Translations under genes and position numbers: made by a program
Shown: positions 5,356 to 42,469 of the stretch, in pieces
Numbering within the stretch: the first letter of the stretch is position 1
Layout of the letters: each line of letters starts with the position of its first letter
IMG/VR virus record: IMGVR_UViG_3300044617_000450
Span: 1 to 45,882 of that record
From: a virus
Length of the DNA: 45,882 bases
Direction: 5' to 3' (one strand)
The notes under the pieces: model-generated
Database searches by the model: none
Told to the model about the DNA's origin: nothing
The model's input: the letters and a program-made list of their open reading frames with translations, nothing else

Positions 5356-5661
5356 ATGGATATCAATACACTTTTGGCTGACGCCAAAGCCCGTTTCAGT
5401 CACAATTCAGCAAAGCATTATCTAAAAGAGAAATACAATTCAAAATTAACCTTTGCCGATCAAGGTGGATTATGGAAGGCTGATAAAGAAACTATCAGCG
5501 TATTAAATGCATTCGATTCGGAAAGAGTTGTCATTATGGACACCTTCGAAAATCCAGTAGAAGTAGATAGAAAAGAATTATTAAGAAAGTTGACTGCTAT
5601 CTATAACGAAACTATGTCAGCATGGGTCGCTGAGTTAAAGGAATTAGAGGGTAAACGATGA
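5356..5661 (+). CDS. Conserved small phage protein, unknown function
   Basis: 101 residues, charged and mostly helical by appearance, with a short beta centre (VVIMDTFENPVEVDRKELL). No signal peptide or membrane segment. The start is supported by a GAGGAG Shine-Dalgarno sequence embedded in a small hairpin, and by a late-type TCTAAATAC box at 5327-5335. The stop overlaps the ATG of the next gene. It is the first gene of the long accessory cluster and follows the fibre genes, so it could be a fibre-assembly helper or belong to the accessory island. I do not recognise a function. Confidence 0.6.
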   Translation: MDINTLLADAKARFSHNSAKHYLKEKYNSKLTFADQGGLWKADKETISVLNAFDSERVVIMDTFENPVEVDRKELLRKLTAIYNETMSAWVAELKELEGKR

Positions 5662-6467
5662 CACGTGGTGCGATACTTTTCGCATTCAATAGTCCTAAAT
5701 ATGATTATTACGCTATGGCAGAACATACTGCTAAACGTATTAATCATTTTTTAGACATGCCAGTAACGATTGTTACTGATGAATCATCATTGGCAAGCAA
5801 GACAGATTACGAATTTGATAAAACGGTAATCATCGAACCTGATCGTACTAATCGTAGAGATTGGGGAATATGGATCAATAAAGGTAGATATCAAGCATAT
5901 GAGTTAAGTCCCTATGATGAGACATTATTGCTTGATGTTGATTATATGGTCAATAGTAATAAATTATTAACGTGCTTTGAGTTATATGATGATTTTTTCT
6001 GCCACGATACAACTAGTTTTGCTATGTATCCCAAGGCTCCTCAAGAAGTATTAAGCGGGTATAGTTTTAATACATTGTGGGCTACCGCAATAGTATTCAA
6101 AAAGACACAAAGAGTCAAACAAATATTTGAGTCATTAGAGATGGTTCAAAAGAATTTTGCGCATTATTCTAATATTCATCATTTCATTGCTAACACTTTT
6201 AGAAATGATTATGGACTTACGTTAGCACTGCGATTAGTTAACGGACACACATTACCTAAACAAGACATAATTCCCTGGAATCTATTTCACATAGGCAAAA
6301 ATACCACTGTGTATGCAAACAGTGATGACGAATTCAATACTGAGTATACTATACTTTTTGATAATTGGCAAAGAGGTAAAATAAGAAAAGAATACATCAC
6401 TGTAAAAGATATGGATTTTCATGTCATGAATAAAGATAATTTTGTGGAGTTGATCAATCATGGATAA
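5658..6467 (+). CDS. GT-A-type glycosyltransferase-like protein
   Basis: 269 residues. The N-terminus (GAILFAFNSPKYDYYAMAEHTAKRI) and the order strand, nucleotide-binding region, LLLDVDYMV match a GT8-like GT-A fold. DVD near residues 94-96 would be the DxD metal and sugar-nucleotide site. The RRDWGIWINKGRYQAYELSPYDETLLLD segment is typical of the phage branch, where an Asp/Glu pair follows a conserved YxAYELSPY motif. The start overlaps the previous stop in ATGA and its own end overlaps the next gene by 8 bases, indicating translational coupling. Donor and acceptor are unknown. Confidence 0.65.
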   Translation: MTRGAILFAFNSPKYDYYAMAEHTAKRINHFLDMPVTIVTDESSLASKTDYEFDKTVIIEPDRTNRRDWGIWINKGRYQAYELSPYDETLLLDVDYMVNSNKLLTCFELYDDFFCHDTTSFAMYPKAPQEVLSGYSFNTLWATAIVFKKTQRVKQIFESLEMVQKNFAHYSNIHHFIANTFRNDYGLTLALRLVNGHTLPKQDIIPWNLFHIGKNTTVYANSDDEFNTEYTILFDNWQRGKIRKEYITVKDMDFHVMNKDNFVELINHG

Positions 6468-7257
6468 AGGATTTGTAATATTAGCACAGAATACTGAATT
6501 CGTGAATTATGTCAAGTGCGCAGAAGTATTAGCGGGAAGCATAAAAAAACATATGCCCAATGCTAATATTTCATTGATAAGTGATGATGTGGATGACGCA
6601 AAGAATTTTGATCAAGTAATAGCATTACCATATGGTGATTTGGATCCTATAGGTAATTGGAAACTAGTCAATGACTGGCAAGTATATGAAGCAAGCCCGT
6701 ACGAATACACTATCAAGTTAGAAGCAGACATGTTCTTGCCGAAATCTGTAGATTACTGGTGGGATACTTTGATGCATAGAGATGTAGTATTGTGTTCAAC
6801 TATCAGAAATTTTCGTCAAGACATAAGCAAGGAAAGATTCTATCGTAGATTCATCGATGAGAATAAACTTCCTGATGTTTATAATGCTATAACTTATTTT
6901 AAGAAAAGCGAAACCGCTGAACATTTTTTTAAGTTAGTTCGATTCATCTTTGAGAATTGGCCTGCAATAAGGGGAACATTGAAGTGTAACTCAAATGAGC
7001 CGGCTACTACAGACTGGGTTTATGCTTATGCCGCACACATCATGGGCCCAGAAAAAGTAACGTTACCTGGATACAAAGATTTGTCCATGGTACACATGAA
7101 GCAATGGGTTAACGGATTGCCAAGCGAAGACTGGACTCAGATATTGATATACGAAGCGTTACCAGAAGTTTTACGCATCAATACAGTGCCTCAGATATAT
7201 CCTTTTCACTATCATGTGAAAACTTTTGCTGATAAACTAGAGAATTGCTATGAGTGA
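6460..7257 (+). CDS. GT-A-type glycosyltransferase-like protein
   Basis: 265 residues with the same layout as the preceding gene: an N-terminal Rossmann-like strand (GFVILAQNTEFVNYVKCAEVL), SISLISDD-like second strand, and YEASPYEYTIKLEADMFLP where EAD (about residues 88-90) takes the place of DxD. The SPYE/SPYD element before the acidic motif is shared with the upstream protein, suggesting an ancient tandem duplication. A His-containing C-terminal region (IYPFHYHVKTFADKLE) may complete the metal site, as in GT8 enzymes. It overlaps both neighbours. The fold is likely; the substrate cannot be told. Confidence 0.6.
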   Translation: MDKGFVILAQNTEFVNYVKCAEVLAGSIKKHMPNANISLISDDVDDAKNFDQVIALPYGDLDPIGNWKLVNDWQVYEASPYEYTIKLEADMFLPKSVDYWWDTLMHRDVVLCSTIRNFRQDISKERFYRRFIDENKLPDVYNAITYFKKSETAEHFFKLVRFIFENWPAIRGTLKCNSNEPATTDWVYAYAAHIMGPEKVTLPGYKDLSMVHMKQWVNGLPSEDWTQILIYEALPEVLRINTVPQIYPFHYHVKTFADKLENCYE

Positions 7258-7597
7258 AACACAAGATTACGTATTAGTTTTTGAGGCTCCAAAAATAGAA
7301 GCACCTGAGTTTCGTCTTTACTATGATGAAGAAACCGGTAAAGTATTATTCTATACTTGCGAAAAGCCTGAAGGAAAGTTCATCGTCATCGATAGCATTA
7401 CCTTTGCCTGCGCAAGGCAGGATGTAAGAGTAATAGATGGCAAATTATCAACAGTAAATCCGTCATCTATCATCAGCAAATTAAAACTAACTGAATCTGA
7501 TGGTGTAAAATGTTTGATAGAGGATATAAGCATCATTGCAGATGAAGATAGTACAGATGTTCAAACATGGAAATTGCTAACATATGAGTTACGATGA
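7250..7597 (+). CDS. Small protein of unknown function in the glycosyltransferase/radical SAM cluster
   Basis: 115 residues, acidic, predicted mainly beta by eye (VLVFEAPKIEAPEFRLYYDEETGKVLFYTC). Two cysteines occur, near residues 42 and 59. No known domain, signal peptide or membrane segment is visible. It overlaps the upstream gene by 8 bases and the downstream gene by 14, so it is translated within the cluster. Its size and its place just before a radical SAM array make it one of few candidates for a small substrate or accessory protein, but nothing in its sequence proves this. Confidence 0.55.
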   Translation: MSETQDYVLVFEAPKIEAPEFRLYYDEETGKVLFYTCEKPEGKFIVIDSITFACARQDVRVIDGKLSTVNPSSIISKLKLTESDGVKCLIEDISIIADEDSTDVQTWKLLTYELR

Positions 7598-8537
7598 TCT
7601 TATAGATGTCGCTGACTTAGATTGCATATATCTAAGTTATGATGAGCCACAAAAAGAAGAATTTTGGATAAAAATTAAGAACATGGTTCCCTACGCTAAA
7701 CGAGTTGACGGCGTTAAGGGAAGTGATGCCGCACATAAAGCGGCCGCTGAAGCAAGCGATACAGAAAGATTCATACTCATCGATGGGGATAATATGCCTA
7801 ATGAAGATTTCTTCAATCTTCAATTAGATTTTCGTGGGCTAGATGAGTCATATAAAAAAGCACAGTTTCGTTGGAAGGCTATTAATAATATAAATGGCTT
7901 GCGTTATGGAAATGGCGGCATGAGTTCATGGACAAAAGATTATGTCTTTAACATGAAGACGCATGAACATACAGATGGTAGCACAGCGACACAAGTTGAT
8001 TTTTGCATGGATAGCGCAGATAGTCTATATTGGGCTATGAATGATTGCTATAGCACTACTTACCCTAATCAAACTCCGTTTCAAGCATGGCGTGCAGGCT
8101 TTCGTGAAGGGGTCAAGATGGTACTTGACCGCGGTGCTAGACCTACTGTAGATGACTTCAAAAACCGTGTGGCTACGAGAAATCTAAATAATCTCACGAT
8201 ATGGCATAATGTAGGCATGGATGTTGAGAATGGTGATTGGGCTATTTACGGAGCAAGGTTGGGGACACATATGACTTTGCTCACTGATTGGGATCATAAA
8301 CAAGTCATGTGGTTTGATACATTACACAGAATGTGGGATGGAATCTTCAGACACATGAGACCCCTCATTGAGGGTGATCGAATCGGAAATATATTGAAGG
8401 ACAAACTCGACTTACCTATCTGTCGTCTTGATGCCGAACAAAGTAAATTTTTCAAAAGACACTATAATGCTGACAAGCATAATATAGGTCCTCTTGTGAA
8501 AGAGATGGATGTCATCAGGAAGATAGAAGGCTGGTAA
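7584..8537 (+). CDS. Glycosyltransferase-like protein related to the giant repeat protein's C-terminus
   Basis: 317 residues. A GT-A-like N-terminal half contains CIYLSYDEP, KRVDGVKGSDAAHKAAAEAS and FILIDGDNMP; DGDN (about residues 68-71) is a plausible DxD site. Then follow NGLRYGNGGMSSWTKDYV and, at residues 155-180, TYPNQTPFQAWRAGFREGVKMV. The same ordered motifs (VDGVDG, HAALEAS, NGLEYGHQGM, NTDPYSTWRTAFREVIKL) recur in the last 220 residues of the 2113-residue protein at 25874-32215, which lacks the DGDN. This copy therefore looks like the catalytically intact member of the family. The product is unknown. Confidence 0.6.
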   Translation: MSYDDLIDVADLDCIYLSYDEPQKEEFWIKIKNMVPYAKRVDGVKGSDAAHKAAAEASDTERFILIDGDNMPNEDFFNLQLDFRGLDESYKKAQFRWKAINNINGLRYGNGGMSSWTKDYVFNMKTHEHTDGSTATQVDFCMDSADSLYWAMNDCYSTTYPNQTPFQAWRAGFREGVKMVLDRGARPTVDDFKNRVATRNLNNLTIWHNVGMDVENGDWAIYGARLGTHMTLLTDWDHKQVMWFDTLHRMWDGIFRHMRPLIEGDRIGNILKDKLDLPICRLDAEQSKFFKRHYNADKHNIGPLVKEMDVIRKIEGW

Positions 8538-9940
8538 TGAGTTACGAAATAGACAGAATAAAACAGATAAAGATCGTAGTAGAAAATGAAGCGACTCCTA
8601 CATTCTGTTTAGCAAAGTGGCATCATGTCACAATGTACCTACAATCAGGCGAGACACATAGTTGCTATCACCCTAGACCTCACAAGATTCCATTAGAAGA
8701 ACTTGTAGACAATCCTAGCGCACTACATAACACAAAAGAGAAAAAACTAGAGCGTAAGATGATGCTTGAGGGTAAAAGACCTGAAGGCTGTCAATATTGC
8801 TGGAACGTAGAAGACATGGGTCCTGATTATGTGAGTGATAGACATATCAGAAATGCCAGTATACACACTGAAGAACGTTTTGAACAATGTGCTAAAGGTA
8901 GCCATGAGCAAAACATCAATCCAGAATATCTAGAAATCAATTTCGGTAATGACTGTAATTTCAAGTGCGGTTACTGTCATCCTAAGTACAGCACAAGTTT
9001 CTATAACGAGATCAAGCAAAATGGCCCTGTGACTTCAGTAAAGAATCACCGTTGTGATATCGATTGGATGAAGTTATATCAGCGTGAAGAAGAAAATCCC
9101 TATGTTGATGCGTTCTGGAAATGGTGGCCCGAACTACGTAAGACATTAACGATCATGCGTATCACGGGCGGCGAACCAACAATGCACCGTAGTACATACC
9201 GAGTCATTGAAGAACTGGACAAAGATCCAGCACCATGGCTTGAGTTAAATGTTAATAGCAACCTTGGAACTAAGACTGCTTTAGTTGAGAAACTAGCAAG
9301 TTCTGTAAGGAAATTATGCGATGAAAATAAGATACGCAGTTTCAAGTTATTCTCAAGCATTGATACATGGGGCAATAGAGCCGAATATATCAGAACGGGA
9401 ATGGACATAGGATTGTGGGAGAAAAACCTACACACCTATCTCACATTGACCAATAGCCCTGTTACTTTCATGATCACATTCAACATTTTTAGCGTGACTA
9501 CATTTAAATCATTGCTTGAAAAGTTGTTAGAATGGCGCGGTATGTATGACTGGTATGATGATCCAGTCAATCCCCAACATCGTGTTAGATTTGATACTCC
9601 TTATCTACGCGAACCCCTCCAGTACGATATGAACATACTCCCTAAAGATGAGTTCATGCCGTACATGGAGGAATCTTTAAAGTTCATGGAAGAAAACGTA
9701 GACGACAAGTCCAGCAAGAAATTTAGTTCAATCGAATATGAAAAGTTCAAACGTGTAGTAGATTACATGCGTGAGACTTACTATAGCGAAGAAAAATTGA
9801 TTGAAGGTCGCAGAGATTTTTATAACTGGTTCAATGAACTAGACGAACGTAGAGACACAAATATGCTTGATGTATTTCCTGAAATGATGAATTTCTACAG
9901 ATTGTGTCAAGAAACAAATAGGCTCAATCCATTACCATGA
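8537..9940 (+). CDS. Radical SAM protein with N-terminal auxiliary Cys cluster (1 of 6)
   Basis: 467 residues. The radical SAM [4Fe-4S] motif is CNFKCGYC (C140, C144, C147), followed by the SAM-contacting TGGEPT motif (RITGGEPTMH). Before the barrel sits a second Cys group: C24, C43 and a CQYC pair at 85/88, matching the auxiliary-cluster pattern of the neighbouring paralogues although PW is replaced by KWHH and one Cys of the CC pair is lost. Enzymes of this type use SAM and an auxiliary cluster for peptide or small-molecule modification; the substrate is unknown. Its A of ATG is the last base of the previous stop codon, and it overlaps the next gene by 4 bases. Confidence 0.8.
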   Translation: MSYEIDRIKQIKIVVENEATPTFCLAKWHHVTMYLQSGETHSCYHPRPHKIPLEELVDNPSALHNTKEKKLERKMMLEGKRPEGCQYCWNVEDMGPDYVSDRHIRNASIHTEERFEQCAKGSHEQNINPEYLEINFGNDCNFKCGYCHPKYSTSFYNEIKQNGPVTSVKNHRCDIDWMKLYQREEENPYVDAFWKWWPELRKTLTIMRITGGEPTMHRSTYRVIEELDKDPAPWLELNVNSNLGTKTALVEKLASSVRKLCDENKIRSFKLFSSIDTWGNRAEYIRTGMDIGLWEKNLHTYLTLTNSPVTFMITFNIFSVTTFKSLLEKLLEWRGMYDWYDDPVNPQHRVRFDTPYLREPLQYDMNILPKDEFMPYMEESLKFMEENVDDKSSKKFSSIEYEKFKRVVDYMRETYYSEEKLIEGRRDFYNWFNELDERRDTNMLDVFPEMMNFYRLCQETNRLNPLP

Positions 9941-11172
9941 ATCTAACTACTGAACAAAAACAAGAACTATTAACTACAAACAAAAGTTTTTGTATGCTGC
10001 CGTGGATCAGTATGCATGTCACCCCTACGGGTGTAGCGACACCTTGTTGTATAGGTAATCAGATTCATCCAGTAGGTAATGCTAATCAGATGTCATTGAT
10101 GGAACTAGTCAATAGCGAAGCCATGAATGATTTAAGAAGAGACATGCTAGAGGGTACCAAGAACCCTATATGTAGCGCATGTCATAGACATGAAGAGCAA
10201 GGCATTTATAGTTTTAGACAGAACATCAACGAGATGTTTGGAAAATACACAGATGAGGTATTGTCTGCCACTGACATCACAGGTGAATTGGGTCAGTTCA
10301 AGATGCGCTATTTTGATCTACGATTGAATAATATATGTAACATGAAATGTCGTACATGTAACAGTCATTATAGCAGTCAATGGGAGAATGAAGATGCTAA
10401 ACAAGGAAGATCCCTGATCACTATACAAAAAGAGAATCGTAGCAAATATGTTGATGATATATTGACACACGTACAGCATATCGACATGGCTTATTTTGCT
10501 GGCGGAGAGCCATTGATCACAGAAGAGCATTATATAATGCTTGAAGAGATGATCAAGTTGGGTAGGACAGACATCAGACTTAGATACAATACTAACCTCA
10601 GTAATCTAAAATACAAAGATAAAGACCTACTTGATTTATGGAGACACTTTGATAAAAAGATAGAAGTCTATGCAAGCATAGATGATTTTGGAAAAAGAGC
10701 AGAATACATACGATCAGGTACTGTATGGGAACAGATAGAACAAAATTTTAGAAGAGTTAAAAGCGTACCCTATATAACTATGCAGATCAATAGTGTATTG
10801 AGTATTTTTAATTTCACTACGTTCGGTGAGTTTTATCATTACTTGTTGGATAACAAATTGTATGAACCCACAGATAGCGTGAACTACATATATAACATGA
10901 TCAGCCCGGTACATATTGCCGCATTAGCCTTACCCGTGCATTTGAAATTACAAGGCATAGAAGGCCTTGAAAGCGTGATAAGAAGAATGAATGATATGGG
11001 TTTTAAAAGAGAGCATATGCAAACATTAGTCGATGCTAAAAAATGGGTATTAGCAGAAAACACCTGGGATCAGCATAAAAAAGAATTTCAAGAAGAGACG
11101 AATAGATTAGACAATATACGTGAAGAAAAGTTCGCTGACGTATTTCCAGAATTAGCAGAGTTGATGGAATGA
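9937..11172 (+). CDS. Radical SAM protein with N-terminal auxiliary Cys cluster (2 of 6)
   Basis: 411 residues. The N-terminal cluster motif is complete: C19 in CMLPWISMHVTPTG, C37-C38 in TPCC, and C79/C82 in CSAC. The radical SAM triad is C134, C138, C141 (CNMKCRTC) and the GGE motif is AGGEPL. A GN motif follows the CC pair, as in SPASM/twitch auxiliary domains, but here the domain precedes the barrel rather than following it. The C-terminus (FADVFPELAELM) matches the ends of neighbouring paralogues (LLDIFPELKPLW, MLDVFPEMMNFY), a family signature of unknown meaning. Gene overlaps on both sides indicate coupled translation. Confidence 0.82.
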   Translation: MNLTTEQKQELLTTNKSFCMLPWISMHVTPTGVATPCCIGNQIHPVGNANQMSLMELVNSEAMNDLRRDMLEGTKNPICSACHRHEEQGIYSFRQNINEMFGKYTDEVLSATDITGELGQFKMRYFDLRLNNICNMKCRTCNSHYSSQWENEDAKQGRSLITIQKENRSKYVDDILTHVQHIDMAYFAGGEPLITEEHYIMLEEMIKLGRTDIRLRYNTNLSNLKYKDKDLLDLWRHFDKKIEVYASIDDFGKRAEYIRSGTVWEQIEQNFRRVKSVPYITMQINSVLSIFNFTTFGEFYHYLLDNKLYEPTDSVNYIYNMISPVHIAALALPVHLKLQGIEGLESVIRRMNDMGFKREHMQTLVDAKKWVLAENTWDQHKKEFQEETNRLDNIREEKFADVFPELAELME

Positions 11173-12380
11173 GAAAACCTATAGATAAAGATGTTGTATG
11201 CTTGATGCCGTGGATACACATGCATATATGGCCTAACGGCAACACTTTTCCCTGTTGCATGAGCGATAGCAATGAAGTGTTCGGCAACGTATACAAAGAG
11301 AACATCAATAAACTAATCAATAATGATAAGTTCAACGAGTTGCGTAGACAGATGTTGAACGGTGAAAAGCCCAAAGCATGTACACGCTGTTATGAACTAG
11401 AGACGAGCGCAGATAGTTGGACATTACGTAAGAACAGTTTAGTTAGTTTCGAGAAGCATATGGATCTGTTTGATAAGACAAACGAAGACGGGTCCATCGA
11501 TGATTACAAGATGTATTACATGGATATACGTTTCAGCAATTTGTGTAATATGAAATGCAGGACGTGCGGACCAGAACTAAGCAGTAGTTGGTATGAAGAT
11601 CAAGTAAAGATGCATCCAGACTACCCTAAGTCAAAGTTTATTGACTTGAAGAACAACCCATTCTTCATGGATGACTTATTGCCGCATTTGAACTATGTAG
11701 AAGAAGTTTACTTTGCGGGCGGTGAAGCACTGATAACACCACAGCACTACCAAGTACTTGACTATTGGCTAGAGAAGGGTAGAACAGATGTAAGATTACG
11801 CTACACCACTAACTTTAGCGCATTAAAGTTGAAAGACAAATCTATATTAGATTATTGGAAGATGTTCAAGGATGTGAGGGTGGCAGCAAGTTTAGATACG
11901 TATGGTGACAGAGCAGAGTATTCTCGCAGTGGTACAGATTGGGATCGCATCGTTAAGAACCGCAGACAGATGATCGAGAGTTGCCCTGACGTATATTTTG
12001 AGATCACTCCGACTGTTAGCGTGTTCAGCGTACATAGTTTGTTTGATTTTCATAGAACATGGGTGGAACAAGAATTGTTGAATATCGACAATATTCGTGT
12101 CAATATATTAACACATCCAAGATACTTTAGCATCACTATGCTTACACCTGAACAAAAACGAGAAGTGCATGAATTATATGACCGTTACATAAAATGGTTA
12201 GAAGATAATAGTGCGCAACCACAGACTATACACGCAGTAAAGGGTATAGTTGACTATATGGATAGCGCGAATCACATAGATTTAATACCTGAATTTAAAA
12301 ATGTGATAACTAAGATAGACATCTTAAGAGATGAATCTTTACTAGATATTTTTCCGGAGTTGAAGCCATTATGGACATAA
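11169..12380 (+). CDS. Radical SAM protein with N-terminal auxiliary Cys cluster (3 of 6)
   Basis: 403 residues, the closest paralogue of the preceding protein. It has C11 in CLMPWIHMHIWPNG, C29-C30, a CTRC pair near residue 75, the barrel triad C126, C130, C133 (CNMKCRTC) and AGGEAL in place of AGGEPT. A DIRFSNLCNMKC strand and a YFAGGEALITPQHY segment parallel YFAGGEPLITEEHY in the upstream gene, supporting recent duplication. The C-terminal LLDIFPELKPLW signature is present. No membrane segment. Reaction and substrate are unknown; auxiliary-cluster radical SAM enzymes commonly act on peptides or sugars. Confidence 0.82.
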   Translation: MRKPIDKDVVCLMPWIHMHIWPNGNTFPCCMSDSNEVFGNVYKENINKLINNDKFNELRRQMLNGEKPKACTRCYELETSADSWTLRKNSLVSFEKHMDLFDKTNEDGSIDDYKMYYMDIRFSNLCNMKCRTCGPELSSSWYEDQVKMHPDYPKSKFIDLKNNPFFMDDLLPHLNYVEEVYFAGGEALITPQHYQVLDYWLEKGRTDVRLRYTTNFSALKLKDKSILDYWKMFKDVRVAASLDTYGDRAEYSRSGTDWDRIVKNRRQMIESCPDVYFEITPTVSVFSVHSLFDFHRTWVEQELLNIDNIRVNILTHPRYFSITMLTPEQKREVHELYDRYIKWLEDNSAQPQTIHAVKGIVDYMDSANHIDLIPEFKNVITKIDILRDESLLDIFPELKPLWT

Positions 12381-13738
12381 ATCATGTCATCTACGCAGTA
12401 CCAAAAGTACCAGAAGACGTAAGCAGTGAGTTTAGAATCGACTGGCTTACTCAGAACCTACGTAGGTTCTGCATATTACCGTGGTTGAATCTTAACACGA
12501 ATCCCAATGGCAACGTCAAGTTATGCTGTTCTATCGCTATGGATCACTTTGTGCATAGAGATGGCGGCAGACCCTTCAATCTAGGATATGATGATATCGA
12601 AGAGATTTGGAATAGTTTCTACATGCAAAATGTCAGAAATTTGCATAGACAGAACAACGGCGCTATGGAGTGCGGTGACTGCTATAACATTGAAAAAGTA
12701 TCCGGTCACAGCCCTAGAAAGGGTCAGAATCTACTATGGACTGAGAGAAAGAAAAAAGATAGCGAATTAAGCGACTATCTGATCAATGTATCAAATGAGG
12801 AGTTGATGTCAAGCACAGATATACTTCCTTTAAGTCTAGAATTAAGATTGGGTAATCAATGTAATTTGAAATGCGTCACATGTTGGGGCATGAGCAGTTC
12901 ATTGATTCAAGAAGAACGCAAAGAGATGTTAAGTTCAGGATTATTATTGAAGAATAATCTAGGCTGGCTACATAATCGTTGGCAAGAAGAAACAGACAAC
13001 GTAGATCAAGCCGACGTTAAAGAATGGTATGAAACAGAAACATTTTATAACAACTTCAAAAAGATGGCTCCTAAACTACGTCGCCTATACACCACTGGTG
13101 GTGAGCCTACATTGATCAAAGCCAACTATCGAATGTTGGAAGAGTTGATCGAAGCAGGAAACACAGATTGTCGTATCGAATTCACTAGCAACATGACTAC
13201 ATGGAACCCCAAGTTCTATGAAGCGTTGAGCAAGTTTGAGAACGTAGAAATTCAGATGAGTATCGATGGCGTAGGCCCTGTAGCAGAATATATCAGATAT
13301 GGAACTGAATGGGAAAACGTAAAAGAAAACGTTTACAAGGTCGTACAGATGGCAAGCACACGCCCTAATTGGAGAGTAGTGACATATACTGTATTGCAAG
13401 CATTGAACTATCAATATATCACAGAGATATGGGCATTGCTAGGAGACGTAGCATTTGTGAATTGCAAGCGCATAGATTGGTGGCCTATCACATTGACTCA
13501 TCCTCCTTATCTTGGATTAAGCGTGATACCTGCGCATGAAAGAATCACCGCCATACCTAAGATACGTTCAGAAGCATTGAAGTATGAAAGCGGAAGTAAT
13601 TTCTTTACTATAGGTTCTGCTACGATTGATGCATTATGCGATAGCATCAGCAATGTACCTTATGACGAACACATGGCAAGACAGTATATCTCATATAGAA
13701 AATTCCTAGACTCTTTTAGGGCTTCAAAAAATGGATAA
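12371..13738 (+). CDS. Radical SAM protein with N-terminal auxiliary Cys cluster (4 of 6)
   Basis: 455 residues, slightly longer than the neighbours because of an N-terminal extension and an insertion around residues 175-215. Motifs: C34 in CILPWLNLNTNPNG, C52-C53, a CGDC pair near residue 99, the barrel triad C164, C168, C171 (CNLKCVTC) and TGGEPT. The SMDGVG-like SIDGVGPVAEYIRYGTEW segment parallels SIDDFGKRAEYIRSGTVW and SLDTYGDRAEYSRSGTDW in the other copies. It overlaps its neighbours by 8-10 bases. Function unknown, but every cluster-binding Cys expected of the family is present, so the enzyme should be active. Confidence 0.82.
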   Translation: MDINHVIYAVPKVPEDVSSEFRIDWLTQNLRRFCILPWLNLNTNPNGNVKLCCSIAMDHFVHRDGGRPFNLGYDDIEEIWNSFYMQNVRNLHRQNNGAMECGDCYNIEKVSGHSPRKGQNLLWTERKKKDSELSDYLINVSNEELMSSTDILPLSLELRLGNQCNLKCVTCWGMSSSLIQEERKEMLSSGLLLKNNLGWLHNRWQEETDNVDQADVKEWYETETFYNNFKKMAPKLRRLYTTGGEPTLIKANYRMLEELIEAGNTDCRIEFTSNMTTWNPKFYEALSKFENVEIQMSIDGVGPVAEYIRYGTEWENVKENVYKVVQMASTRPNWRVVTYTVLQALNYQYITEIWALLGDVAFVNCKRIDWWPITLTHPPYLGLSVIPAHERITAIPKIRSEALKYESGSNFFTIGSATIDALCDSISNVPYDEHMARQYISYRKFLDSFRASKNG

Positions 13739-14717
13739 ACTAATAGCAATTGAACCCATGTTTCATCCCTATGTGAACATCACATGGCAGGTGAATGATT
13801 TCTGTAATTATAAGTGCAAGTATTGCAATCCTGGCAACTGGGCCGGCATGAATCCCAAACGAGACAAGCCAGAAGACTTTGAAAAGATCAAAGAGAATCT
13901 AGATAAGATCATACGTCACTTTGAGTCAAAGGGTACTAAGGGATATAAATTTTACTTCAGCGGCGGAGAACCAACAGTATGGCCGCATCTGATACCATTG
14001 ATCAATTGGCTTAAGATTCGCATCGATGATCCTCATATTGGTATCAATACTAATTTAAGCCGTAGTACTGAATGGTGGAAGACACACTATCATTTGTTTC
14101 ATGATGTCGTGGCTAGTTTTCATATTGATTTCGCGAATCGCGAACGCTATCTTGAGAACCTTGTATTTTTACAAAATAAAGTAAACTATCTTTGTAGCCG
14201 CATGATGATGCAAGAAGATCGCTTCCAAGAGGTTGTTGATTTCGGTGAGAAAGTAAAGGCTACACTACAGAATTATAATGTAGAATGGGTACCGTTATTT
14301 GACGATATTAGTGTTGATGTAGGGCCGTGGAAGTACAGTGAAGAATGGATGTATGAGTTTTTCAAAACACACACGTTTGAATCACAGATCAAGATACACA
14401 AGCCAGACGGTAGTAAGTGGATGTGTGCAAGTAAAGAAGTCTATGAATCAGGAAATGAACAGTCATTGAATGGTAATCGTATCGTAGCAGAGCGCAGGAA
14501 TTTCTTTAGCGGCTGGGAGTGTAACGTAGACGAGTCATTGTTTATCAATAGTAAAGGTCATACCACTGCTGCAAGTTGTGGTCAAGGTCCTGTGTTGGGT
14601 AATATTTACGAAGAGATAGAACTCATGTCTAAACCAATAACATGCAAAAAGATGCAATGCACTTGTGGTACTGACATCATCATAACTAAACGAGCACCGG
14701 CGGAGCAAAATGCCTGA
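13731..14717 (+). CDS. Radical SAM protein with C-terminal SPASM-like Cys region (5 of 6)
   Basis: 328 residues and architecturally different from its neighbours. The radical SAM triad comes early (C25, C29, C32 in CNYKCKYC), followed by SGGEPT. The auxiliary Cys region is at the C-terminus: WECNVDESLFINSKG, SCGQGPVLGN and KKMQCTCG, spaced like a classical SPASM/twitch domain. In the flanking genes the equivalent C-(W)-PxG-CC-GN pattern precedes the barrel instead. The protein is thus the conventional-order relative in the array. It overlaps both neighbours by 8 bases. Substrate unknown. Confidence 0.8.
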   Translation: MDKLIAIEPMFHPYVNITWQVNDFCNYKCKYCNPGNWAGMNPKRDKPEDFEKIKENLDKIIRHFESKGTKGYKFYFSGGEPTVWPHLIPLINWLKIRIDDPHIGINTNLSRSTEWWKTHYHLFHDVVASFHIDFANRERYLENLVFLQNKVNYLCSRMMMQEDRFQEVVDFGEKVKATLQNYNVEWVPLFDDISVDVGPWKYSEEWMYEFFKTHTFESQIKIHKPDGSKWMCASKEVYESGNEQSLNGNRIVAERRNFFSGWECNVDESLFINSKGHTTAASCGQGPVLGNIYEEIELMSKPITCKKMQCTCGTDIIITKRAPAEQNA

Positions 14718-15969
14718 AAAAGATTTATATTGTTCACTAGCATTTAATTCTATAAGTTTCGGCCCACACGGCGGTAGCCGCCCATGCTGTGCGGTAGATA
14801 CTTATTTCTGGAAAGAAACTAACCATCAATTAGCAGACTACAAGAACTATCTTCCTACATGGTTCAATAACAAAGAGATGGTCAAGTTACGTCAAGACAT
14901 GCTTGACAACAAATGGAATCCTATCTGTAACCTATGTAAGATACGAGAAGATGTTGGGCAAGCAAGCACAAGACAGATTTTCAATCACACATTGAGTGAA
15001 GTAGAACAACGCACAGGTAAGTCCTGGCGCACTCCTACAGCAGAGATTACAGATTTCAGTAACATATTTCTATTAGATGTTACAACGGGAAATAAATGCA
15101 ACTCAGCATGTTTGATGTGCAACAGTTCTGCTAGTTCACTATGGGCTAAAGAACAACAAGATATCACGGGATATGCTTGGAACCACGCTAACTTGAATTG
15201 GTTCAGCGAAGAGAATATTGCACCGATACTAGATCAGTTGACTAACTTAAAAGCGATACAGTTCGCAGGCGGAGAGCCTACAATCAATGATGCTGTGATG
15301 TTCATGCTAAAACGACTGATAGATCAAGGTCGAAGCAAAGATATAACATTAGGATTTGTCACCAACCTCACAGGTATCAGTGATGAAATGCTTGAGATAT
15401 GGAATCAGTTTAGCACTAAGCATATTACTATCAGCATAGATGGTGTAGGTAAAGTTAATGAATATATACGCTATCCTTTTACGTGGAAGAAAGTAACTAA
15501 TCAGTTAGAGCAATTAAAGAAGATTGCTAAAGAGAAAGGTAATTACCATATAGGTCTTAGCCACACTATCACTTCATTGAATCTATGCACGTTCGATGAA
15601 TTAGTGAAGTGGTGGGAGACTCAAGTAGCAGACGAGGGTTCTGGAATACTCAAAGCATTACCCCATGTGCAATGTGTGAACAACCCTAGTTATTTTAATC
15701 CAGCATATGCACCAAAAGGATTGAAAGAAAAGACTGCTGTGATGCTTGACGAATTACAAGAATATTTGAAGACTGTTGACTTAGAAAGCAAATATCTACC
15801 TGCTATTGAAAATATCAGAACGAATGTCATCAATGCTAAAGTAGATGAAAAACTCAGAATGGCTCATTGGAAGCGCATGAAGAATTTCGTAGAGCCATTG
15901 GATAAGTACAGAGACAGAAACATCTTTGACTACTTACCATATATGAAGGAATTTTGGGTGTTCGAATGA
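14710..15969 (+). CDS. Radical SAM protein with N-terminal auxiliary Cys cluster (6 of 6)
   Basis: 419 residues. N-terminal cluster: C8 (CSLAFNSISFGPHGG), C26-C27 in RPCC, and CNLC near residues 74-77. Barrel triad: C130, C134, C137 (CNSACLMC), then AGGEPT. SIDGVGKVNEYIRYPFTW matches the paralogue segment in the other copies. The PW after the first Cys is changed to AF. The C-terminal DRNIFDYLPYMKEFW is a diverged version of the array's DxFPEL ending. Its last codons overlap the following SGNH gene in ATGA. It closes the six-gene radical SAM run. Confidence 0.8.
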   Translation: MPEKDLYCSLAFNSISFGPHGGSRPCCAVDTYFWKETNHQLADYKNYLPTWFNNKEMVKLRQDMLDNKWNPICNLCKIREDVGQASTRQIFNHTLSEVEQRTGKSWRTPTAEITDFSNIFLLDVTTGNKCNSACLMCNSSASSLWAKEQQDITGYAWNHANLNWFSEENIAPILDQLTNLKAIQFAGGEPTINDAVMFMLKRLIDQGRSKDITLGFVTNLTGISDEMLEIWNQFSTKHITISIDGVGKVNEYIRYPFTWKKVTNQLEQLKKIAKEKGNYHIGLSHTITSLNLCTFDELVKWWETQVADEGSGILKALPHVQCVNNPSYFNPAYAPKGLKEKTAVMLDELQEYLKTVDLESKYLPAIENIRTNVINAKVDEKLRMAHWKRMKNFVEPLDKYRDRNIFDYLPYMKEFWVFE

Positions 15970-16742
15970 AGTTAGTGGCTTTCGGAGATAGTTTTATACA
16001 GCCTAGCCCGCATAACGAAGAAGAAAAACTTTTTCGTAATCATTCTAATTATACAGAATGCTATGAGGGAATACTAGCAAGATATTATAATACAGTACCT
16101 AATTTCATGGGTGTACCAGGATCCGGCCCATGGAGTATGTTTATGAATTTTATACAGTACATGGAAACCGTTGATGACGAAGAATATCCGGACGTAGTTT
16201 TATTTGCTTGGTCAGAACCCAGCAGGTTATATCATAAAGAATATGTGATCAATAGTGGTCTAGCATCACAAGATAGAAGAAACTGGGATCAAGATAAAAT
16301 TGATACTATGGACGCTGCCTTAGATTATTATCGATGTTTGCTCGATACTAATAAAAATAATTATGACTTAAGAGCCTTGATGCTCTATACGGATGAGTTG
16401 ACTAAAAATTATCCTAACGTAAAATTCGTGCATATGTATTGTTGGTCTATCATAGAAGATATGTATTATGTAGGTTGGCACAATCATTATAGAGAAAAAA
16501 AATTAGATGAATTAGATTATGGTCATACGTTTAAGAACGGCGTACAGATAAGACCGCCGCTCATGTATCTAAGTATGTTAGATGAATGGCCAAGTGATCT
16601 TGCCAGAGATCCTAGAACTTGTCATCTATCTAAAAACATGCATATAATGTTAGGAAAAGCACTTAAAGAATGCATAAATGATTATGCGCCTGGCAAGATA
16701 GTTGATGTTGAACTGGGCTGGTTTCATAATGGTATAGGGTAA
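15966..16742 (+). CDS. SGNH/GDSL hydrolase-like protein, first tandem copy
   Basis: 258 residues. The ATG at 15966 overlaps the preceding stop (ATGA) and puts the family motif immediately at the N-terminus: MKLVAFGDSF, with Ser9 as likely nucleophile. GVPGSGPWSMFMNF would supply the oxyanion Gly, and a late DPRTCHLSKNM segment offers the catalytic Asp/His. This matches SGNH hydrolases that remove or transfer acyl groups on sugars. A further in-frame start at 15954 would add four residues and lacks support. It is 38-45% similar by eye to the next gene, a tandem duplicate. Acceptor unknown. Confidence 0.65.
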   Translation: MKLVAFGDSFIQPSPHNEEEKLFRNHSNYTECYEGILARYYNTVPNFMGVPGSGPWSMFMNFIQYMETVDDEEYPDVVLFAWSEPSRLYHKEYVINSGLASQDRRNWDQDKIDTMDAALDYYRCLLDTNKNNYDLRALMLYTDELTKNYPNVKFVHMYCWSIIEDMYYVGWHNHYREKKLDELDYGHTFKNGVQIRPPLMYLSMLDEWPSDLARDPRTCHLSKNMHIMLGKALKECINDYAPGKIVDVELGWFHNGIG

Positions 16743-16746
16743 GACA

Positions 16747-17481
16747 ATGAAGATAGTGGGTTTTGGAGATAGTTTTATATTAGGATTGGCGCCGAAGCAT
16801 AGTAAATTATCTCTAGCGTATCAAGGAATGATAGGAGAACATTATCGCTGGTGCACCGCGCCCCTTGAGTGCCATCCTGAATTCAGGGGAGTCAGTGGCA
16901 CTGGCCCTTGGAGTATGTTTTTTGATTTTTTGAATTACCCTGATAAAGAAAAAATAGATGTAGTCATCTTTGCGTGGTCTGAGATAAGCAGGTTATATCA
17001 CAAAAAATATCATATATGTAATTCAGTAGTTAGTTCTACTAAAAATCATGAAGATGACGAGTATATGGATGCAGTAGAGGCAGCAGGCAAATATTATCAG
17101 TATCTATTTGATCATGATCAGAAGAATCATGAACTTTCAGCATTGATGATGCTTGTGGATGAGATGTCTAGATCATACCCTAATACCAAATTTATACACC
17201 TTCCCTGCTTCTCTAAATACGATACTAGTACACACTGGGATCCTTTATATGATAAGATCAAACCAAATCAGATTGATTATTATCATAGATTTAAGCATGG
17301 TGCTGAGGTGCGTCCATGCTTGATGTATCTCAGTAAAAAAGACGGATGGCCTGATGACCTCTCTAAAGATACCAGAGAATGTCATATGACTCCTAAAATG
17401 AATAGATTACTAGCAGATGCTATAATCGATTGCATAGAAGACTATCATCCTGGAAAACTAGTTGAAATTGACATTGAGTAA
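16747..17481 (+). CDS. SGNH/GDSL hydrolase-like protein, second tandem copy
   Basis: 244 residues, clearly duplicated from the upstream gene: MKIVGFGDSF, SGTGPWSMFFDF, DVVIFAWSEISRLYHKKYH and DTRECHMTPKM align in order with the neighbour. Ser9 and the late His are kept, so both copies could be active. It follows the previous stop by 4 bases, preceded by a weak Shine-Dalgarno-like AGGGTAAG. In this setting, between radical SAM and glycosyltransferase genes, an acyl-ester hydrolase or acetyltransferase-type role on a glycan is plausible but not shown. Confidence 0.65.
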   Translation: MKIVGFGDSFILGLAPKHSKLSLAYQGMIGEHYRWCTAPLECHPEFRGVSGTGPWSMFFDFLNYPDKEKIDVVIFAWSEISRLYHKKYHICNSVVSSTKNHEDDEYMDAVEAAGKYYQYLFDHDQKNHELSALMMLVDEMSRSYPNTKFIHLPCFSKYDTSTHWDPLYDKIKPNQIDYYHRFKHGAEVRPCLMYLSKKDGWPDDLSKDTRECHMTPKMNRLLADAIIDCIEDYHPGKLVEIDIE

Positions 17482-17486
17482 TTATA

Positions 17487-18716
17487 ATGGCGTTATTAAA
17501 TCAGAATGAGGGTTTTAAATTTTTATGGAGTCAAAGAACAGACATTGTTAATGCACCTCCGCATAAGTTAGACCATAGAGAAAATTCATTGATATGGGTG
17601 CTGAGAACATGGGACGACAAAGATTATTACTATTGTGAGATATTTCAAGGAAATGCTTTCTTGATATTTCCTGTAGAGACGATAGTTCCGCCAGACATAC
17701 TTGAAAAGATACGTACGGATGATCAAACATATCTTTATATCTGCAATACACATGAAGCATTCTTAGACATAGTAGAGCCATTATATCAAGCATTGGTTAT
17801 AGGTGCAGGAATACCGCCTAGAAAAATATACATCAGTAATGAAGCACCTGATCTAGAAAGAGAAGTGCGAAGGTATGCTGACGAAAATGACCTAGAATAC
17901 ATGAACGTAGAATGGGTATTAGAGTTCGAATACTCAATCAGTTGGCAGGCTTGTGATTATCAATTAGACGGGAAAACGATACTCACAGATAAGAGATACG
18001 ATAAGAAATATTTGAACTTCAATCGTAGATGGAGATTGCAAAGACCTACATTTGTCGCATTGCTCAAGGCTAAAGGATTATTAGACAGTGGCTATGTTAG
18101 CATGGCACCTAGTGATGATGGGCGCAATTGGGAATACATGTGGTCTTGGATAAAAGGACATCACAAAGATCCTGATATGGCAGCATTATTACAAAGCATA
18201 GACAAAGATATGCCGCTGCCTCCTATGTACTTAGACACAGATGAGTTAGTTAATAACAGAGCCGTGTTTGAGGATAAGAGCCTATATCTATACGAGAATT
18301 CTATAGTCAGCGTAGTCAATGAGACTACATTCTATCAAGGTGATAACCCCAATGAGTCTAGATTCCTTAGCGAAAAGATTTTCAAACCTATAGCAGTAGG
18401 ACATCCTTTTATATTTTTAACAGTACCGAAATCATTAGAAGTATTAAAGTCATTGGGGTACAAAACATTTCATCCATATATCAATGAAAGTTATGATGAT
18501 GAATTCGATAATTGCACACGCATGTTAAAGATATTAAAAGAGGTAGAGCGCATCTCAAACTTCACGGATGAAGAAGTCAAAGAGTTTATCAAAAATGTTA
18601 AACCTATCTGTGATTATAATCAAGAACTGTTAAAGAAAAAAGTGATTCCCTTCAAGACAGGATTCGATCCTAAATGCGAGATTCTACATAGTCATTTTGT
18701 GAGAAAGATGCTATGA
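17487..18716 (+). CDS. Glycosyltransferase-like protein of the EK-xPF-HPYINESYDDE type
   Basis: 409 residues. The C-terminal half contains RFLSEKIFKPIAVGHPFIF, then LKSLGYKTFHPYINESYDDE. The same block occurs in the protein at 20840 and, diverged, in the one at 34158. A conserved Glu-Lys followed by Pro and Pro-Phe is reminiscent of the donor-binding region of fucosyltransferase-like (GT10-type) GT-B enzymes. The N-terminal half has no strong motif. It overlaps the next gene by 4 bases. The glycosyltransferase assignment rests on this one block and context, so it is moderate. Confidence 0.5.
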   Translation: MALLNQNEGFKFLWSQRTDIVNAPPHKLDHRENSLIWVLRTWDDKDYYYCEIFQGNAFLIFPVETIVPPDILEKIRTDDQTYLYICNTHEAFLDIVEPLYQALVIGAGIPPRKIYISNEAPDLEREVRRYADENDLEYMNVEWVLEFEYSISWQACDYQLDGKTILTDKRYDKKYLNFNRRWRLQRPTFVALLKAKGLLDSGYVSMAPSDDGRNWEYMWSWIKGHHKDPDMAALLQSIDKDMPLPPMYLDTDELVNNRAVFEDKSLYLYENSIVSVVNETTFYQGDNPNESRFLSEKIFKPIAVGHPFIFLTVPKSLEVLKSLGYKTFHPYINESYDDEFDNCTRMLKILKEVERISNFTDEEVKEFIKNVKPICDYNQELLKKKVIPFKTGFDPKCEILHSHFVRKML

Positions 18717-19555
18717 TAATCGATTATAGAAATTATAAAGAGATAGATTACAAAAAATACAAACGAGTTTTCATATTTGGTTGTAGTTTCACGAAATATG
18801 AATGGCCCACGTGGGCTAACATACTATCATATGAAATGCCAGACGCAGAAATTTATAATTTCGCACAGTCAGGTGCCGGTAATCTTTTCATATCAGAAAG
18901 AGTCATAGCCGCAAATCAGCGATATAGATATAATAAAGACGATTTGATATTGTTGATGTGGTCTACGCATAGCAGAGAAGACCGTTATATAGAGCATGGT
19001 TGGGAAACTCCCGGTAATATATTCACGCAAGGTTTCTATTCAGAAGAGTTTGTGAAGAAATATTCCTGCGTTAAGGGATATGTAGTAAGGGACTTAGCGT
19101 TGATGACTATGATTAAGAATAGTTTAGAGAATTTCCCCTGTGATTCTGTTATGTTTAAATCAGTTGAACCTGAATATGACAAGAAATTGTTCATGGGAAA
19201 TGCCTTTGAAGAAGTGATAGATTTATACAGAGATGTCATCTATAGCATGGGTCTACCATTATACAACTTTGTTCACAACGGAAAAGGTGGATGGATCAAT
19301 GGGCATTTGTATCATTGGTCTAGCATTTCATATTCAAGTTATGAAACGCCGTTTCAAGACTACCACCCTAATCCTGCCATGTACATGGATTTTTTAATGA
19401 AGTCAGATTTTGTGCTGTCATCAGAAACACAAGAAAGAGTCACAAGATACAATGAAGAATTGTTAAAATTAAAGGATAGACAATCCATAGAAAATTGGTT
19501 TAAAAAGATAGCGGACAGCAATCCTAAATATAACCATAACATACATTTAATTTAA
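18713..19555 (+). CDS. SGNH hydrolase-like protein, third copy
   Basis: 280 residues. RVFIFGCSFTKYEWPTW provides a GCSF nucleophile motif in place of GDSF (Ser near residue 26), followed by NFAQSGAGNLFI as the Gly/Asn blocks and a late DYHPNPAMYMDFL with the catalytic Asp-x-x-His pattern. This is a more canonical SGNH arrangement than in the tandem pair upstream and is not closely similar to them. The stop is followed by 46 noncoding bases with a late-type box, so it ends the long overlapping cluster. Substrate unknown; acyl sugar is a guess from neighbours. Confidence 0.65.
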   Translation: MIIDYRNYKEIDYKKYKRVFIFGCSFTKYEWPTWANILSYEMPDAEIYNFAQSGAGNLFISERVIAANQRYRYNKDDLILLMWSTHSREDRYIEHGWETPGNIFTQGFYSEEFVKKYSCVKGYVVRDLALMTMIKNSLENFPCDSVMFKSVEPEYDKKLFMGNAFEEVIDLYRDVIYSMGLPLYNFVHNGKGGWINGHLYHWSSISYSSYETPFQDYHPNPAMYMDFLMKSDFVLSSETQERVTRYNEELLKLKDRQSIENWFKKIADSNPKYNHNIHLI

Positions 19556-19601: not shown

Positions 19602-20810
19602 ATGAGTAAGACAGTAGCAATGATTGGAGTGGGTAAACTCGGACAAGATTGTGCCGAGGTCATGGCAGAACACTATAACGTCATAGGGTATGACGTAGAA
19701 CCAAGAACCCCTGCTAATTTTAATATGGCTTCTACTATTGAAGAAGCAGTAAAAGACAGAGATTTCATATTCATCGCGGCACCAACCCCGCATGATCCTA
19801 TTTACGGTGGTGAGACTCCTACTAGTCACCTACCCAAGAAAGACTTTGACTATACTATCGTCACTAACATCCTCAAAGAAGTAAACAAGTTTGTTAATAA
19901 GAATCAACTAGTGATATTGATCAGTACAGTATTGCCGGGAGTTGTGCGCGGACAGTTAGAACCCTGCATCACTAATGCACGTTTCATCTACAACCCATAT
20001 CTCATCGCTATGGGAACTATAAAGTGGGATATGACTAATCCAGAAATGGTTATCATCGGTACAGATGACGGTTCTATCACAGGTGATGCACAAGAACTCA
20101 TTGACTTCTACAAGCCTATGATGGATAATGCCCCGCGCTATGAAGTGGGTACATGGGACGAAGCAGAAGCAATTAAGATTTTCTATAATACATTCATCTC
20201 AACCAAACTCGCATTAGTAAATATGATCCAAGACGTAGCAGAACGTAATGGCAATATGAACGTTGACGTTGTGACTAATGCATTAGCCAACAGCACACAT
20301 CGTATCATGAGCAATCGTTATATGACTGCGGCTTTGGGTGATGCAGGCGCATGTCACCCTAGAGACAACATCGCATTGCGTTATATGGCAGACAAGTTAA
20401 ACTTAGGTTATGACTTGTTCGATGCCATCATGCTTGCTAGAGAGATACAAGCAGAGAACATGGCAAAGAAATGTCTAGAGTATGGTAAGCGCGTAGCGAT
20501 CATAGGCAAGGCGTACAAGCCGGCTGTGCATTATACTAATGGTAGTGCTAGCATGTTAGTAGGCTACTATGTAGAAAAGCATGGCGGTGAAGTACGTTAT
20601 GTAGACTTCAACACGGGTGACAACGATAGTCAATCAGACTGGGCCGATGTATATTTGATCGGTTATTGGGAAGATTGGGTTAAGGGTGTATTGGGTACGA
20701 TACAATCAAATTCTGTATTGATAGATCCGTGGCGCAAGGTCACTAAGTCTGATGTCAATTGTGAATTCGTACACTACGGTGACACCAGAAAAAAAAAGGT
20801 AGCGAATTAA
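19602..20810 (+). CDS. UDP-glucose/GDP-mannose-type nucleotide-sugar 6-dehydrogenase
   Basis: 402 residues. An N-terminal Rossmann fold (AMIGVGKLGQDCAEVM, GxGxxG at 8-13) binds NAD. The central domain has K202 in FYNTFISTKLALVNM and the catalytic Cys at 251 in GACHPRDN, matching the family GGxCxPKD site. The C-terminal domain contains GKAYKPAVHYTNGS, equivalent to GLAFKxxTDDxRxS. Such enzymes oxidise a nucleotide-linked hexose to the uronate in two NAD-dependent steps. A strong Shine-Dalgarno (GAGAGGA) and a late-type box precede it. It could feed a uronic acid to the neighbouring glycosyltransferases; which sugar is not decidable. Confidence 0.85.
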   Translation: MSKTVAMIGVGKLGQDCAEVMAEHYNVIGYDVEPRTPANFNMASTIEEAVKDRDFIFIAAPTPHDPIYGGETPTSHLPKKDFDYTIVTNILKEVNKFVNKNQLVILISTVLPGVVRGQLEPCITNARFIYNPYLIAMGTIKWDMTNPEMVIIGTDDGSITGDAQELIDFYKPMMDNAPRYEVGTWDEAEAIKIFYNTFISTKLALVNMIQDVAERNGNMNVDVVTNALANSTHRIMSNRYMTAALGDAGACHPRDNIALRYMADKLNLGYDLFDAIMLAREIQAENMAKKCLEYGKRVAIIGKAYKPAVHYTNGSASMLVGYYVEKHGGEVRYVDFNTGDNDSQSDWADVYLIGYWEDWVKGVLGTIQSNSVLIDPWRKVTKSDVNCEFVHYGDTRKKKVAN

Positions 20811-20822
20811 ATCGTACTGTAA

Positions 20823-20849
20823 GCCCAGACAAAGATTTCATGTCTGGGC
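20823..20849 (+). promoter_or_regulatory. Hairpin enclosing a start codon
   Basis: GCCCAGACA (20823-20831) pairs perfectly with TGTCTGGGC (20841-20849) around a 9-base loop; the ATG at 20840 straddles the loop/stem boundary. No T tract follows, so translational control is more likely than termination. Confidence 0.5.
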
Positions 20850-40134: not shown

Positions 40135-40401
40135 ATGGCTAAGACGATCAGTATCAAAGTTTTCGCAGATCCGGGTCATGCCTGGGCACGTTTCCCAAAA
40201 GCAAGACTTGCCAAACTTGGCATCGCCGATAAGATTTCTACTTACAGTTATCAAAATGGTAACAATGCTTTCCTCGAGGAAGACTGTGACCTTTCTGTAC
40301 TGATCACTGCCCTCAAACAAAAGGGTTACGAAATCAAGTTTAACGAAAGCCACACAAATCGGCAAAGTAAAATTCGTAGTTATGACTACTACAAGGCTTG
40401 A
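40135..40401 (+). CDS. Small protein under a strong early-type promoter
   Basis: 88 residues, starting after a GGAG Shine-Dalgarno (tgacGGAGtaacaa). The sequence (KVFADPGHAWARFPKARLAKLGIADKI; NNAFLEEDCDLSVLITALKQKGYEIKF) looks like a compact alpha/beta protein. I recall similar short proteins in T4-like aquatic phages but not a function. It has its own promoter and shares a short 5' leader (acatatcatt) with the MoxR-like gene, so the two may be co-regulated. Confidence 0.6.
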   Translation: MAKTISIKVFADPGHAWARFPKARLAKLGIADKISTYSYQNGNNAFLEEDCDLSVLITALKQKGYEIKFNESHTNRQSKIRSYDYYKA

Positions 40402-40426
40402 CATTTGCGTTTGAAGGTACTATACT
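40398..40426 (+). promoter_or_regulatory. Consensus sigma70-type promoter
   Basis: TTGACA at 40398, 17-base spacer, TATACT at 40421-40426. Drives the MoxR-like gene; leader acatatcatt is shared with the previous promoter. Confidence 0.85.
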
Positions 40427-40460
40427 TCATACATATCATTTTTTTATAGGAGACTCTCAC

Positions 40461-42440: not shown

Positions 42441-42469
42441 AGATACATATGAATGATAGGAGTGTACGT

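Follow-up and report, generated by a model that had tools for sequence, protein, structure and literature searches.

A conserved viral cassette of radical SAM and glycosyltransferase genes

Introduction

What would a virus do with six radical S-adenosylmethionine (SAM) enzymes encoded one after the other? The question is raised by IMG/VR record IMGVR_UViG_3300044617_000450, a viral sequence of 45,882 nucleotides (nt) that was analysed whole and is called the window here, in which the genes r1 to r6 run without a break from 8537 to 15969. The answer given below has two parts. The array belongs to a larger, conserved viral cassette in which radical SAM and glycosyltransferase genes are translationally coupled, and the enzymes may tailor a glycan built by the virus. 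How are the genes arranged, and how widely is the arrangement kept? Is the Cys-rich segment in front of the barrel a known domain? On which molecule could the enzymes act?

The radical SAM array

The six genes are the following.
8537–9940, + strand: r1, N-twitch radical SAM enzyme; NF033640 311 bits; clade support 1.0, 118 groups
9937–11172, + strand: r2, N-twitch radical SAM enzyme; NF033640 363 bits; PF13186 at residues 19–83; some relatives lack r2
11169–12380, + strand: r3, N-twitch radical SAM enzyme; NF033640 394.5 bits; AlphaFold2 (AF2) model; twitch homologous to that of BtrN
12371–13738, + strand: r4, N-twitch radical SAM enzyme; NF033640 277 bits; in a subset of cassettes (27 of 112 r1 groups)
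13731–14717, + strand: r5, radical SAM enzyme from a different family, five-Cys motif at the C-terminus; PF04055 39.8 bits, NF033640 43.6 bits
14710–15969, + strand: r6, N-twitch radical SAM enzyme; NF033640 281 bits; in a subset of cassettes (26 of 112 r1 groups)

The original prediction, made from the DNA letters, described six adjacent, overlapping genes with CxxxCxxC and GGE motifs, and the open reading frames agree with it. Each overlaps the next by 4–10 nt, both motifs occur in all six proteins (CxxxCxxC starts at residues 140, 134, 126, 164, 25 and 130 of r1 to r6), and PF04055 is detected in all six, above its cut-off in r2, r4, r5 and r6. The same prediction gave five of the genes an N-terminal Cys set. 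Four Cys do precede the barrel in r1 (C24/43/85/88), r2 (C19/37/79/82), r3 (C11/29/71/74), r4 (C34/52/101/104) and r6 (C8/26/73/76), but the motif proposed for them, C-x2-PW...PxG...CC, is not general: it is exact in r2, r3 and r4 only, r1 having CLAKW...SCY and r6 CSLAF...PCC. In r5 the Cys set lies after the barrel, as had been read from the sequence, and consists of five Cys (C264/283/305/310/312).

A cassette conserved across viruses

In IMG/VR, r1 has at least 577 relatives and r5 at least 370. The loci surveyed are the closest relatives of the window genes, and the co-occurrence rates below describe these and not the N-Twi family as a whole. Across 128 viral contig groups the genes usually run [gtA-gtB-p115]-gtC-r1-(r2)n-r3-(r4)-r5-(r6)-gtD/E...B12-rSAM, where rSAM stands for radical SAM and gtA to gtE are predicted or candidate glycosyltransferase genes described further below. 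Order and adjacency are conserved in more than 100 contig groups, which supports the earlier idea of a multi-gene pathway next to glycosyltransferases. The coupling is tight. In the window gtC overlaps r1 by 1 nt; among 112 groups it is the immediate 5' neighbour of r1 in 84, the median gap being -4 nt. The gaps between neighbouring radical SAM genes (n=615) have a median of -8 nt, 98% of them being 30 nt or less. Of the 59 r1 loci flanked on both sides by 6 kilobases (kb) or more, gtC is present in 52, gtD/E/F in 53, r5 in 51, r3 in 48, the B12-binding radical SAM gene in 32 and an epimerase gene in 24. Core cassettes that lack gtA/gtB (n=30) still retain gtC in 20 cases.

Which viruses carry the cassette? 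The gp23 major capsid protein (PF07068) scores above its cut-off in 12 of 20 large cassette contigs; judged by gp23, these contigs are largely T4-like. An A-type Fe-S carrier gene is found in 7 of the 20. In one 231-kb virus there are 17 N_Twi matches, and two of these share a single frame of 889 amino acids (aa) on the L011 contig (G003, 12302–14941), which suggests a tandem fusion of two N_Twi_rSAM proteins. Outside the viruses, r3-r5-N_Twi-r1 form a compact block on a Bdellovibrionales contig (L025, 9965–14676), with a phage-type integrase nearby; this is likely a cellular copy of the cassette core.

Have the array genes arisen by recent duplication? This was considered and rejected, as pairwise identity within the array is 20–34% and r1, r2, r3 and r6 fall into distinct clades. 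Clade support is 1.0 for r1, 0.92 for r2, 0.93 for r3 and 0.83 for r6, and only 0.42 for r4. The separate clades make the array positions look orthologous rather than recently duplicated.

An N-terminal twitch domain

The proteins r1, r2, r3, r4 and r6 match NF033640 (N_Twi_rSAM) over their full length with 277–395 bits, the curated cut-off being 170 bits. PF13186 (SPASM, curated cut-off 21.5 bits) is found above cut-off at the N-terminus of r2 (44.5 bits), r3 (45.1 bits) and r4 (28.9 bits); a PF13186 search of r1 and r6 gave no match, though their Cys align. All four twitch Cys are kept in 543 of 552 aligned N-Twi relatives, with CxxxCxxC in all and GGE in nearly all, and the Cys pattern appeared in 0 of 4000 shuffled sequences, so the N-terminal Cys set is not there by chance. 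Positions 8–88 of an r2/r3-type profile match residues 163–246 of BtrN, its C-terminal twitch (E 7e-7), as expected if the set is a twitch/SPASM-type domain, and the stretch around CxxxCxxC (121–144) weakly matches BtrN 9–32. Taken together, the two matches place the domains in swapped order. By profile comparison, the five N-Twi proteins carry a true twitch/SPASM homologue before the barrel, the reverse of BtrN and of canonical SPASM/twitch enzymes. BtrN, a 2-deoxy-scyllo-inosamine dehydrogenase whose substrate is a sugar-like aminocyclitol, shares the homologous twitch and a similar C...C...CxxC layout; it differs in having the twitch after the barrel.

The architecture itself is not new. 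NF033640 covers the five proteins with the same order of N-terminal twitch and barrel, although it is a subfamily-type model that is named without a reaction and is silent on arrays, r5 and the coupling to glycosyltransferases. Thus the order is already described, but for a known reaction no description was found: literature searches on N-terminal twitch domains, phage twitch proteins and radical SAM enzymes with tail glycosylation returned no functional account of the N-twitch family. A partial parallel is the tetraether lipid synthase GDGT-MAS, a radical SAM enzyme that likewise has an auxiliary-cluster domain N-terminal to its core; unlike the N-Twi proteins, it contains a rubredoxin domain as well as a C-terminal cluster, with novel His/Met ligands (PMC9433317). 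An NCBIfam model related to GDGT-MAS matches window proteins weakly.

The AF2 model of r3 is a confident one (pLDDT 88.8, pTM 0.87). Predicted viral proteins resemble it over the full length, among them KVP40 Q6WHP4 and many proteins of uncultured Caudovirales. Against solved structures it matches mainly in the barrel.

The fifth gene and the question of permutation

Does the array record a circular permutation of the auxiliary domain? The original prediction suggested so from the contrast between r5 and its neighbours, and this part is not supported. Similarity of r5 to the other array proteins is confined to the barrel (hhalign E 9e-11; NF033640 43.6 bits, barrel only), and its C-terminal Cys region compares weakly with the N-twitch (hhalign E 0.013, probability 3%). 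A Pfam SPASM search of r5 gave no match, and r5 is not a member of the STM4011 family (NF038073 44.8 bits against a cut-off of 200). Its C-terminal Cys motif is kept in 115 of 127 relatives. Since r5 belongs to another radical SAM family, the difference in order lies between two families and the array shows no permutation event. For the swapped order of the N-Twi proteins relative to BtrN, a twitch fused to the N-terminus accounts for the layout no less well than permutation, and the data do not separate the two.

Genes around the array

The neighbours of the array in the window bear on its substrate.
5658–6467, + strand: gtA, putative GT-A/GT8-like glycosyltransferase with a DVDY motif and weak similarity to gtB, which it precedes in 69 groups
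6460–7257, + strand: gtB, gtA-related putative glycosyltransferase; matches phrog_1903 (unknown function) weakly
7250–7597, + strand: p115, 115-aa protein; gtB-p115 in 45 groups, p115-gtC in 42 groups
7584–8537, + strand: gtC, predicted GT-A fold glycosyltransferase; invariant DGDN (D67, D69, N70)
15954–16742 and 16747–17481, + strand: two related SGNH/GDSL-like hydrolases; GDS motif seen by eye, no usable Pfam match
17487–18716, + strand: gtD, uncharacterised family in which EKxFKPI...HPFI...DESYD motifs are conserved; GT-B-like by eye
18713–19555, + strand: sg3, SGNH-like protein; in 38 of 112 r1 groups
19602–20810, + strand: UDP-glucose/GDP-mannose dehydrogenase family; PF00984 and PF03721 above cut-off
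20840–22003, + strand: gtE, relative of gtD
22011–24251, + strand: B12-binding radical SAM enzyme outside the six-gene array, putative C-methyltransferase class; PF04055 55.4 bits, PF02310 below cut-off
24381–25865, + strand: NodU/NolO-type carbamoyltransferase; PF16861 and PF02543 above cut-off
25874–32215: repeat protein of 2113 aa in which an aromatic-rich motif (..FDYSWHPDP..PPYIYQFGTQWQKTGGPRY..) recurs at least 15 times, mostly at a spacing of about 67 residues

A weak Pfam match had pointed to gtE as a radical SAM protein; this was rejected, as it has no CxxxCxxC and groups with gtD. The AF2 model of gtC (pLDDT 83.5) was compared with known folds by Foldseek and VIA-align (best E 1.1e-3, Z 9.2), and nearly all matches are GT-A glycosyltransferases or nucleotidyltransferases, including a PBCV-1 capsid glycosyltransferase. 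With its modelled Rossmann-like fold and a DXD motif, gtC is predicted to be a GT-A glycosyltransferase. Profile searches of the PDB gave nothing for gtA and gtD and no credible match for gtC, and gtA found no match in Pfam, PHROGs or the PDB. GT7 and DegT genes occur in relatives of the window.

Further downstream the window encodes an S-adenosylmethionine decarboxylase (PF02675, 32231–32614), a NAD synthase (PF02540, 41625–42383) and an AAA ATPase with weak MoxR-type matches (40398–41555), paired with a DUF2201/VWA protein (42449–43780) that matches 760 phage records.

What do the enzymes act on?

A glycan is the most economical substrate, given the predicted GT-A fold of gtC and the sugar genes that the window or relatives of it carry (UDP-sugar dehydrogenase, epimerase, DegT, GT7 and carbamoyltransferase). 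We propose, at roughly even chances, that the array is the radical core of a multi-step pathway tailoring a virus-built glycan, on the virion or on the host surface. Phage glycosyltransferases (gtC; probably gtA, gtB and gtD/E) would build the glycan from nucleotide sugars supplied in part by phage enzymes such as the UDP-glucose-dehydrogenase family protein and the epimerase. In each N-twitch enzyme a [4Fe-4S] cluster in the barrel would cleave SAM, and a second one in the N-terminal twitch would serve to anchor the substrate or to oxidise it, as in BtrN. One step on a sugar residue would fall to each enzyme, for example dehydrogenation, epimerisation or deoxygenation, with r5 contributing another step and the B12 enzyme a methyl group. 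The product may then decorate tail or adhesin proteins or remodel the host surface. In favour of the proposal are the position of gtC directly 5' of r1, its retention where gtA and gtB are missing, the co-occurrence rates at the 59 r1 loci, the predicted fold of gtC, the recurring sugar genes, the gaps too short to hold a precursor peptide inside the array, the A-type Fe-S carrier genes of some large contigs and the glycosyltransferases of the cultured phage K566 described below.

Several points weigh against it. We infer both the substrate and the reactions, and most characterised twitch/SPASM enzymes act on peptides. Family searches with gtA, gtB, gtD and gtE gave no informative match. The top structural neighbours of r3 (BlsE, anSME, DesII and SuiB) are tied and align in the barrel only, with no preference for sugar over peptide; fold neighbours were dropped as a substrate guide, BlsE, anSME and DesII being tied and barrel-only. 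Around cellular N-Twi genes the neighbours are mixed, with Glycos_transf_2 in only 3 of 97 flanking proteins, and alphaproteobacterial N-Twi genes (L064, 5304–9830; L075, 9155–9589) adjoin PqqD-like, HprK-like and NTP_transf_5 genes, a setting that recalls ribosomally synthesised and post-translationally modified peptides (RiPPs). Cellular context gave no clear direction as a guide to the substrate. It is these mixed or RiPP-like neighbours, and the frequent action of twitch enzymes on peptides, that hold the glycan proposal at even chances and give protein modification a minor but appreciable share.

Could the substrate then be a protein? The radical SAM enzymes might crosslink, epimerise or C-methylate one, most likely a phage tail or adhesin protein whose gene is close by, in the manner of RiPP maturation or sulfatase activation, with the glycosyltransferases then glycosylating the same protein. 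We consider this less probable than the glycan, yet the chief alternative to it. Besides the PqqD and HprK-like neighbours of some cellular genes, B12-binding radical SAM enzymes, like twitch/SPASM enzymes, typically modify peptides, and the best NCBIfam model for the B12 gene is a RiPP C-methyltransferase (TIGR03975, 111 bits, below the cut-off of 282). Probable virion-structural genes (clusters c0, c1 and c3) lie just upstream in 39–43 of the 59 loci, and the aromatic-rich repeat protein at 25874 follows the cluster. That protein shares similarity with gtC (107 bits); its first 875 aa found no tblastn match in 50,697 phage records. However, its relatives occur in just 11 of 112 r1 groups, and the short gaps in the array leave no room for a precursor peptide between the radical SAM genes, although a precursor could be encoded elsewhere. 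The core r1-r3-r5 also occurs in 30 loci without a visible gtA/gtB block, some of these contigs being incomplete.

The structural genes beside the cassette speak against DNA as the substrate. Hypermodified bases, radical-modified and glucosylated so as to block restriction, would fit with the use of glycosyltransferases on DNA by phages, with the QueE-like radical SAM proteins that phages have, and with weak matches to the QueE-like phrog_2076 (E 1e-3 to 1e-5). Yet QueE is not among the NCBIfam matches listed and no base-synthesis gene was recognised in the window, which makes this the least probable of the readings. Hardly more probable is a diffusible small molecule or nucleotide analogue, viperin-like or natural-product-like, acting on the host or on competing phages: the enzyme-dense cluster with its carbamoyltransferase and a weak barrel similarity to viperin would suit it, but the genes are tightly coupled to a glycosyltransferase. 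A viperin-like antiviral role was rejected on scores of 18–40 bits against the model's cut-off of 180.

Cultured phages and earlier reports

A tblastn search of r1, r5, gtC and gtD against 50,697 phage records found no match, although a control gene from the window matches 760 of these records. For r3 the matches are distant and limited to Vibrio phages and one marine virus. Among cultured viruses, Vibrio phage K566 (L245, 13965–21764) has four N-Twi genes, with two Pfam GT8 genes and a GT4-like gene interspersed among them. The glycosyltransferase profiles of the window gave no match to those of K566. This cultured phage is an independent case of N-Twi enzymes associated with glycosyltransferases.

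Earlier work had already come across similar regions. A T4-like marine genome, TARA_ERS488813_N000010, has 12 radical SAM genes and Fe-S carrier genes (PMC5332604), and pelagimyophages have radical SAM cassettes in a host-recognition cluster rich in glycosyltransferases (PMC7029224). These are the same kind of virus with several radical SAM genes in a similar genomic region, and in pelagimyophages glycosyltransferases are nearby. The passages concerned in the two papers differ from the present analysis: for the radical SAM genes they describe neither domains nor a conserved order, report no coupling of gtC to r1 and propose no pathway.

Implications

A radical SAM step is costly, sensitive to oxygen and dependent on several Fe-S clusters; even so, the viruses with this cassette maintain a fixed row of such enzymes from translationally coupled genes, most positions having a distinct orthologue. 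It is tempting, if tentative, to think of a conserved viral pathway in which a series of dedicated radical SAM steps, coupled to phage glycosyltransferases, builds a new class of radical-modified glycans on virions or infected hosts. The pathway would be widespread in uncultured T4-like viruses, while the cultured phage records searched would lack its core genes. For the N-twitch family, which has been named by curation, no reaction was found, and cultured phage K566 makes its function testable. Should the substrate be a glycan, the cassettes would offer a wealth of radical sugar chemistry from outside antibiotic pathways, and would be relevant to the ways in which uncultured viruses recognise their hosts or alter them.

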